Positions 8,436-8,740 of a stretch of 38,598 bases of DNA are shown piece after piece. The notes under the pieces were generated by a model. It saw only the letters and a list, made by a program, of their open reading frames with translations. It ran no database searches and had not been told where the DNA came from. The first letter of the stretch is position 1; each line of letters begins with the position of its first letter. The position numbers and the translations under genes were made by a program. Source of the stretch: Alphaproteobacteria bacterium (GTDB taxonomy: Bacteria; Pseudomonadota; Alphaproteobacteria; Micavibrionales; Micavibrionaceae); assembly GCA_021741325.1 (NCBI GenBank), contig JAIOYC010000005.1:1-38598 (forward strand). Direction: 5' to 3'.

Positions 8436-8740
8436 GCTGCTGTAGCTCAGTGGTAGAGCACTCCCTTGGTAGACTTCCATTGCCTCCCGGTGCGGAAACG
8501 CACCGGTGACAACCGCTCAAATTCGGGGAAACCTTTTACCTGGCAACCCCGAGCCAAGCCCGCCCCTGAAAACCAGGGGGAACGGGAAGGTGTAGAGACC
8601 AGACGGGCGGAACCTACGTCGCGTTCGCGCGATAGGGTTAAGGGATGGTCCAGACCACAAACATCCTCTCGGGGATGGCCGCGAAAGCGGCAGGGGTAGG
8701 AAGGGAGAGGTCGGGAGTTCAATCCTCCCCAGCAGCACCA
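8436..8740 (+). tRNA. tRNA-Thr(GGU), interrupted by a group I intron in the anticodon loop
   Basis: The two exons, 8436-8470 and 8701-8740, join into a complete 75-nt cloverleaf. The acceptor stem is GCTGCTG/CAGCAGC; the D-arm is GCTC-AGTGGTA-GAGC. The anticodon stem CTCCC/GGGAG closes the 7-nt loop TTGGTAA, with anticodon GGT at positions 34-36. The variable loop is AGGTC, the T-arm GGGAG-TTCAATC-CTCCC, the discriminator base A, and CCA is encoded. The anticodon, together with the G1-C72 and C2-G71 pairs, fits threonine. Without removing 8471-8700 the anticodon arm cannot form, so splicing is needed for function. The interruption falls directly 3' of the anticodon (between 36 and 37). Confidence 0.93.
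8471..8700 (+). ncRNA. Group I intron (IC3-like) in tRNA-Thr(GGU)
   Basis: A 230-nt intron with the group I core. The 5' exon ends in T and the intron in G, as required. P1: exon GGT pairs with guide GCC (8482-8484). P2: perfect 8-bp hairpin with GAAA loop (8487-8506). P3: CCGCTC (8513-8518) with GGGCGG (8605-8610). P4: TCGGGG with CCCCGA (8547-8552). P6: CCCCTG (8563-8568) with CAGGGG (8574-8579). P7: GACCA (8597-8601) with TGGTC (8646-8650). P8: AACC/GGTT plus TCGCG-TTCG-CGCGA. P9: CATCC/GGATG, and GCCGC-GAAA-GCGGC (8678-8691). P10: CTT (8474-8476) can pair with the 3' exon AAG. Core strings such as TCAAATTCGG, GAGCCAAGC and GGTGTAGAGAC match the Azoarcus tRNA-Ile intron as I remember it. 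There is no homing-endonuclease ORF. Confidence 0.92.

Follow-up and report, generated by a model that had tools for sequence, protein, structure and literature searches.

Group I introns are known in several bacterial tRNA genes, including those for tRNA-Leu(UAA), tRNA-Ile(CAU) and tRNA-fMet (PMC8450103). In α-Proteobacteria, an intron of this kind resides in the tRNA-Arg(CCU) genes of Agrobacterium and Bartonella (BbgpI), where self-splicing has been demonstrated and the host tRNA gene had been missed by annotation (PMC7717549). Certain mobile elements also break into tRNA genes. Islander islands use a tyrosine integrase and an anticodon-loop crossover, displace a tRNA fragment, and restore the split gene with the tRNA fragment carried in their attP site (PMC4383910). 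Tycheposons of Prochlorococcus and Methylophilaceae are likewise tyrosine-recombinase elements bordered by tRNA genes, and group I introns are not mentioned in the available portions of their description (PMC10872708). In the archaeon Caldiarchaeum, a 5' tRNA fragment, a recombinase and an intron-bearing tRNA-Thr(GGU) lie at one locus, and the intron was proposed as a possible barrier to other elements (Sugahara 2012, PMC3293823). The idea of Randau and Soll that tRNA introns guard against integration is cited in PMC4390854.

The locus described here lies in a 38,598-nt stretch of DNA from a member of the Micavibrionaceae, hereafter the window. Its intron resembles those known from bacterial tRNA genes in its fold, its anticodon-loop site, the U.G pair at the 5' splice site, the 3' terminal G and the lack of an endonuclease. 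It differs from them in that its host is tRNA-Thr(GGU), its guide sequence is GCC and, in relatives, such a gene is carried by an island that splits a tRNA gene.

The region from 8436 to 8740 is a tRNA-Thr(GGU) gene whose exons of 35 and 40 nt are separated by a 230-nt group I intron (Table 1). Excision of 8471-8700, exactly the segment delimited in a first-pass annotation of this DNA, restores a 75-nt cloverleaf with the 7-nt loop TTGGTAA and the anticodon GGT. The intron-aware scan proposed at that stage agrees: ARAGORN in intron mode reports tRNA-Thr(ggt) interrupted at position 36 by a 230-nt intron, with the same boundaries. In its ordinary mode the program sees no tRNA-Thr in the window. 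An essential tRNA can therefore escape annotation in such genomes, since a tRNA finder without an intron option is blind at these loci. The transcript would need to lose its intron before the tRNA could read ACC and ACU codons. With guide GCC paired to anticodon GGU, the intron is expected to excise itself with GTP, and presumably it is spliced in this way in the cell.

Table 1. Features of the intron-bearing tRNA-Thr(GGU) gene and its downstream region (window coordinates)
Feature	Position	Strand	Basis
5' exon of tRNA-Thr(GGU), ends in anticodon GGU	8436..8470	+	Exon joining, ARAGORN
P1 5' strand (exon GGU and intron AG), partner 8480-8484	8468..8472	+	Helix 1: 97.5% of cells paired
Group I intron of 230 nt with terminal G, too small for a homing endonuclease gene	8471..8700	+	RF00028, ARAGORN, 16-intron alignment
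P1 3' strand, internal guide GCC at 8482-8484, G8482 in the U.G pair at the 5' splice site	8480..8484	+	Alignment, pair count
P2 hairpin, 8487-8493 with 8500-8506	8487..8506	+	Helix 2: both-sided changes in 7/7 pairs
P3 5' strand, partner 8605-8610	8513..8518	+	Helix 3: 100% paired, both-sided changes 4/6
P4 (8524-8528 with 8547-8551) and P5	8524..8551	+	Helices 4 and 5
P7 5' strand GACCA, partner 8646-8650, crossing P3	8597..8601	+	Helix 8
P3 3' strand	8605..8610	+	Pair count on 16 Thr introns
P7 3' strand TGGTC	8646..8650	+	Pair count on 16 Thr introns
P9 hairpin (8662-8666 with 8673-8677) and GAAA-capped hairpin (8678-8682 with 8687-8691)	8662..8691	+	Helices 10 and 11
3' exon of tRNA-Thr(GGU), CCA encoded	8701..8740	+	Exon joining, ARAGORN
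Lower-GC stretch directly downstream of the tRNA, 43.8% versus 56-57% on either side, patchy	8841..15400		GC profile

A covariance-model search, also proposed in the first-pass annotation, matches Rfam RF00028 at 8461-8673 (E 1.2e-8) over the whole model and does not refute the group I assignment. The score of 39.1 bits falls below the gathering score of 50 bits, so the window intron is missed at the curated cut-off; scores as high as 74 bits occur among homologues in the same family, and those of genomes G056, G004 and G035 exceed the cut-off. The tRNA-plus-intron RNA folds 4.9 standard deviations better than dinucleotide shuffles. Alignment of 16 homologous Thr introns to a P1-P9 model with crossing P3 and P7 helices finds 96.8% of cells paired, compared with 29.8-47.0% when the partner strand is slid by one to three columns, although this percentage is biased toward a model derived from the window sequence itself. 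Such a bias can hardly explain the changes on both sides of a pair, which occur in 27 of the 49 pairs versus 15.3 in shuffles. They include four of six P3 pairs and two of five P7 pairs, the latter appearing across homologues as GACCA/TGGTC, GACTA/TAGTC, GACTG/CAGTC and GACTT/AAGTC. None of the 16 introns departs from guide GCC opposite GGU or from U.G pairing at the 5' splice site, and each one ends in G. Likeness to tRNA-Leu introns makes IC3 a candidate subgroup. This covariation agrees with the crossing P1-to-P9 fold first drawn from the window sequence alone.

The window gene appears from the assembled sequence to be the only tRNA-Thr(GGU) in its genome assembly (G000), which is 84.75% complete and carries 32 tRNAs over the cut-off. 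ARAGORN reads 30 of these, among them intact Thr(CGU) and Thr(UGU) genes and no further Thr(GGU), and a pattern search of this assembly for an intact anticodon arm yields no tRNA. Matches to CCTTGGTAAGG on two of its contigs (C29 and C38) are not tRNA halves. A second, intact gene, which had been named as grounds for doubting the function of the intron-bearing one, is thus absent from what was read. A decaying pseudogene, with ACC and ACU read by another tRNA such as tRNA-Thr(UGU), might still hide behind the incomplete assembly and the intact Thr(UGU) and Thr(CGU) genes. This explanation is very improbable, given that the exons give a sound cloverleaf, that pairs of the catalytic core are kept across 16 genomes, and that any other tRNA-Thr(GGU) is absent from four more genomes that are 90-100% complete (G004, G035, G056 and G136). 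G035 and G136 have the intron-bearing gene only, and no tRNA-Thr is present in the stretch seen of the resident locus that Micavibrio, G004 and G056 retain. One genome, MarineAlpha10_Bin2 (G523, locus L208), has an intact tRNA-Thr(GGU) besides the intron-bearing gene.

The same host and intron layout recur in other α-Proteobacteria. A scan of one genome per species finds 14 records, including SAR116, Hyphomicrobiales, Rhodospirillales, Pseudorhodoplanes and Inquilinus bins. G265 and a cut-off case in G229 add to these, and G411 looks like a record already counted. tRNA-Thr(GGU) serves as an intron host in at least 16 alphaproteobacterial genomes, spread over records from Micavibrionaceae, SAR116, Hyphomicrobiales and Rhodospirillales. 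Named records whose loci come closest belong to the Alphaproteobacteria, and all named Thr-intron records are metagenome-assembled. The literature searched, from which key papers of the 1990s were missing, holds no report of this host. A group I intron with guide GCC in tRNA-Thr(GGU) of an alphaproteobacterium is supported, but the description of this host in the first-pass annotation as new or rarely reported proves too narrow, as the survey of related genomes called for there finds a shared, not a unique, host and uncovers replacement tRNAs on islands that had been missed earlier.

Within the family, a group I intron is present in 16 of 104 genomes, hosted by tRNA-Leu(UAA) or tRNA-Thr(GGU). 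At some of the intron loci ARAGORN slips on the boundaries and reports Ser, Phe, Gln, Leu(GAG) or Stop; script-based and visual correction of the splice sites assigns these loci to Leu(UAA) or Thr(GGU). Leu introns carry the guide GAGU and Thr introns GCC, so the proposal that the Thr host was acquired by switching only the short guide holds for the guide difference. It fares less well as a recent event. In a tree of introns only, Thr and Leu introns group largely apart, with moderate support, and the switch therefore looks old rather than like a recent one-step hop. Group I introns are also seen in apparent tRNA-Lys(UUU/CUU) genes, assigned by eye, and tRNA-Arg(CCU) genes of other α-Proteobacteria (L180, L182, L192, L197, L198; L167, L170, L172, L173, L183).

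BLAST searches with the window gene reveal half tRNA-Thr genes in G004 and G056. In these genomes the resident tRNA-Thr(GGU) is cut in its anticodon loop by islands of 14 kb and 9 kb, respectively. The 5' half in G004 (contig C83, 8491) ends CTTGGTAAGGG and then runs into foreign sequence, the 3' half (22603) begins CCTTGGTAAGGG, and an intron-bearing tRNA-Thr(GGU) lies between them at 18585-18871. The G056 halves are at 15712 and 25131, with the intron-bearing gene at 23342-23634 between them. Both islands have a tyrosine (phage-type) integrase (PF00589) adjoining the right end, the two enzymes sharing 49% identity, and they carry related accessory genes. Their GC contents of 40% (G004) and 37.5% (G056) compare with 45-52% outside, and flanking genes show that they occupy the resident locus at which Micavibrio has its intact gene. 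Partial arrangements occur elsewhere: a 3' half follows the intron-bearing tRNA-Thr by about 126 bp in a SAR116 record (L075), a 5' half precedes it by 97 bp in Pseudorhodoplanes (L074), and G045 has a Thr-island end and intronless tRNA-Thr genes at contig ends. Most Thr-intron loci outside the Micavibrionaceae show no island in the stretch seen, and a search of viral contigs for the Thr-type integrase and the Thr-intron pattern finds nothing.

A second set of islands splits tRNA-Leu(UAA), in the order 5' half, integrase, intron-bearing tRNA-Leu(UAA), cargo, 3' half. Their integrases form a second, tight family (56-78% identity to its first member) and in most cases are encoded on the same strand as the intron-bearing tRNA, some 50-220 bp ahead of its group I match. 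Immediately before the integrase comes the resident 5' half, cut after ACTTAAAATC. The two halves are 18.9 kb (G110), 27.6 kb (G150) and 20.4 kb (G241) apart; they fall on different contigs in G134, G133 and G055, and the 5' half alone is seen in G120, G125, G068, G080, G522, G280 and G464. In several of these islands the carried tRNA-Leu body is strongly unlike the resident gene that was split, so it is not a local duplicate. All six pairs of halves that were joined, Thr(GGU) included, yield intact tRNAs that lack an intron, with complementary acceptor stems in the Leu cases. An integrase, two core-sharing halves and an intact tRNA on joining are found together on one contig in G004, G056, G110, G150 and G241. 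No phage record searched contains the Leu-type integrase. Five contigs of G112 (C2, C4, C13, C20 and C21) hold about ten extra tRNA-Leu 3' halves, in a genome that also has two intron-bearing tRNA-Leu genes, as if many island insertions had occurred.

Both ends of these islands share a core of 10-13 bp, and the intron site falls inside it: CTTGGT^AAGGG for Thr and ACTT^AAAATC for Leu. The spliced exons of the replacement tRNAs equal the core in both kinds of island. Such an island breaks the resident tRNA gene and brings a complete, intron-bearing tRNA gene as its likely replacement. An unaltered replacement would give the element a third, internal attachment site; with an intron in the core, that site would be gone from the DNA, while splicing would still yield a normal tRNA. 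As the intron interrupts the core, the replacement gene should be a poor integrase target as DNA. The intron, its structure and single copy in the window assembly, the islands, the split resident genes and the position of the intron in the core are read from sequence, from which we infer protection from the integrase. We consider it fairly probable that the intron-bearing tRNAs on islands are replacement genes, functional as RNA and masked as integration targets, and that the window copy is a settled descendant of one.

An intron is not a requirement of every replacement. Viral contig L306 (IMGVR_UViG_3300047170_000071, 5812-7437) contains a tRNA-Leu(CAA) 5' half, an integrase and a complete intronless tRNA-Leu(CAA) whose core is changed by one base. 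What replacement tRNAs have in common may instead be a modified core. The intronless genes of G045 point the same way, and the intact tRNA-Thr(GGU) in MarineAlpha10 also counts against the replacement reading. A rival account is that an ordinary tRNA group I intron spread by chance to a further isoacceptor and that islands merely picked up such tRNAs, with no role for the intron in integration. Other bacteria have group I introns in anticodon loops, with no island mentioned (PMC8450103, PMC7717549), the Lys and Arg(CCU) introns have no integrase of either island family nearby, the Leu-type integrase family also occurs at intronless tRNA-Met, Arg, Leu(CAA) and Leu(UAG) genes, and the window copy has no island. 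Chance spread is nonetheless rather unlikely: wherever a replacement tRNA is visible in a Leu(UAA) island, it carries an intron, and since the spliced exons of replacements equal the core, the intron alone separates them from the target. An integrase lies within 1.5 kb of 13 of 50 intron loci versus 1 of 52 intact tRNA loci (Fisher p 0.0004), a contrast biased toward the former because these loci are among the sequences used to train the integrase profile.

The intron might instead be a passenger that rides islands and plasmids and is kept because it is harmless. The introns are 195-281 nt long and leave no room for a homing endonuclease. About 1,275 plasmid records likewise contain an intron-bearing tRNA-Leu(UAA), as does a conjugative Bradyrhizobium plasmid that retains remnants of an integrase. 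This possibility, to which we give less than even weight, leaves the whole-tRNA cargo and the split resident gene unexplained; it is compatible with masking. Many of the plasmid records are of Escherichia, Klebsiella, Salmonella and Acinetobacter, and the aac(3)-IId resistance gene is near the tRNA in the two examined. The unannotated plasmid gene, found for instance at 61828-62121 on NC_004464.2 (L307), shares about 74% identity with the G110 island gene at 98% coverage. The Bradyrhizobium gene (L309; CP094621.1 157750-163916, at 2927-3217) directly follows remnants of a Leu-type integrase.

If masking operates as proposed, these islands could represent a widespread class of bacterial element that destroys an essential tRNA gene and supplies its replacement, with a self-splicing intron that masks the att site in the DNA but leaves the RNA normal, shields the element from its own and sibling integrases and makes that element difficult for the host to shed; we regard this broader claim as evenly balanced. 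The islands share with Islander elements a tyrosine integrase, an anticodon-loop crossover and a displaced tRNA fragment. Unlike those elements (PMC4383910), they leave the resident gene broken and bring in a whole second tRNA gene, its core interrupted by an intron. The Caldiarchaeum locus (PMC3293823) has the same arrangement of fragment, recombinase and intron-bearing tRNA-Thr(GGU), but it is a single archaeal locus, and its introns are of the archaeal type, which a protein endonuclease removes, whereas here there are many bacterial loci, introns of the self-splicing type and two kinds of tRNA. The bacterial islands thus offer a test bed with many natural replicates for the archaeal proposal that tRNA introns guard against integration. 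They also link two subjects of long study, the way group I introns have spread sporadically through bacterial tRNA genes and the use of tRNA genes as landing sites for mobile DNA.

The window copy itself is flanked by core genes, with cysS, nusG and hisS as neighbours, and the window around 8436 contains no integrase, tRNA halves, att arms or core TTGGTAAGGG that would mark a splitting island. The lower-GC stretch that begins about 100 nt beyond the gene is possibly, though uncertainly, a relict of a lost island. An island origin is plausible, and it is slightly favoured that the window copy is the settled descendant of an island-borne gene whose island is gone. The sequence GGAGCCTGCCCGGCG after the tRNA was considered as an att arm and rejected, as it looks like a dispersed repeat. 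The repeat around it occurs at window positions 8786-8800 and at L144 6040; it is shared with G136, in which related copies appear several times on a single contig. Right after the tRNA, a low-GC gene at 9091-10266 encodes a 391-aa protein with weak matches to the Mrr_cat_2 (restriction-endonuclease-like) and sunset domains.
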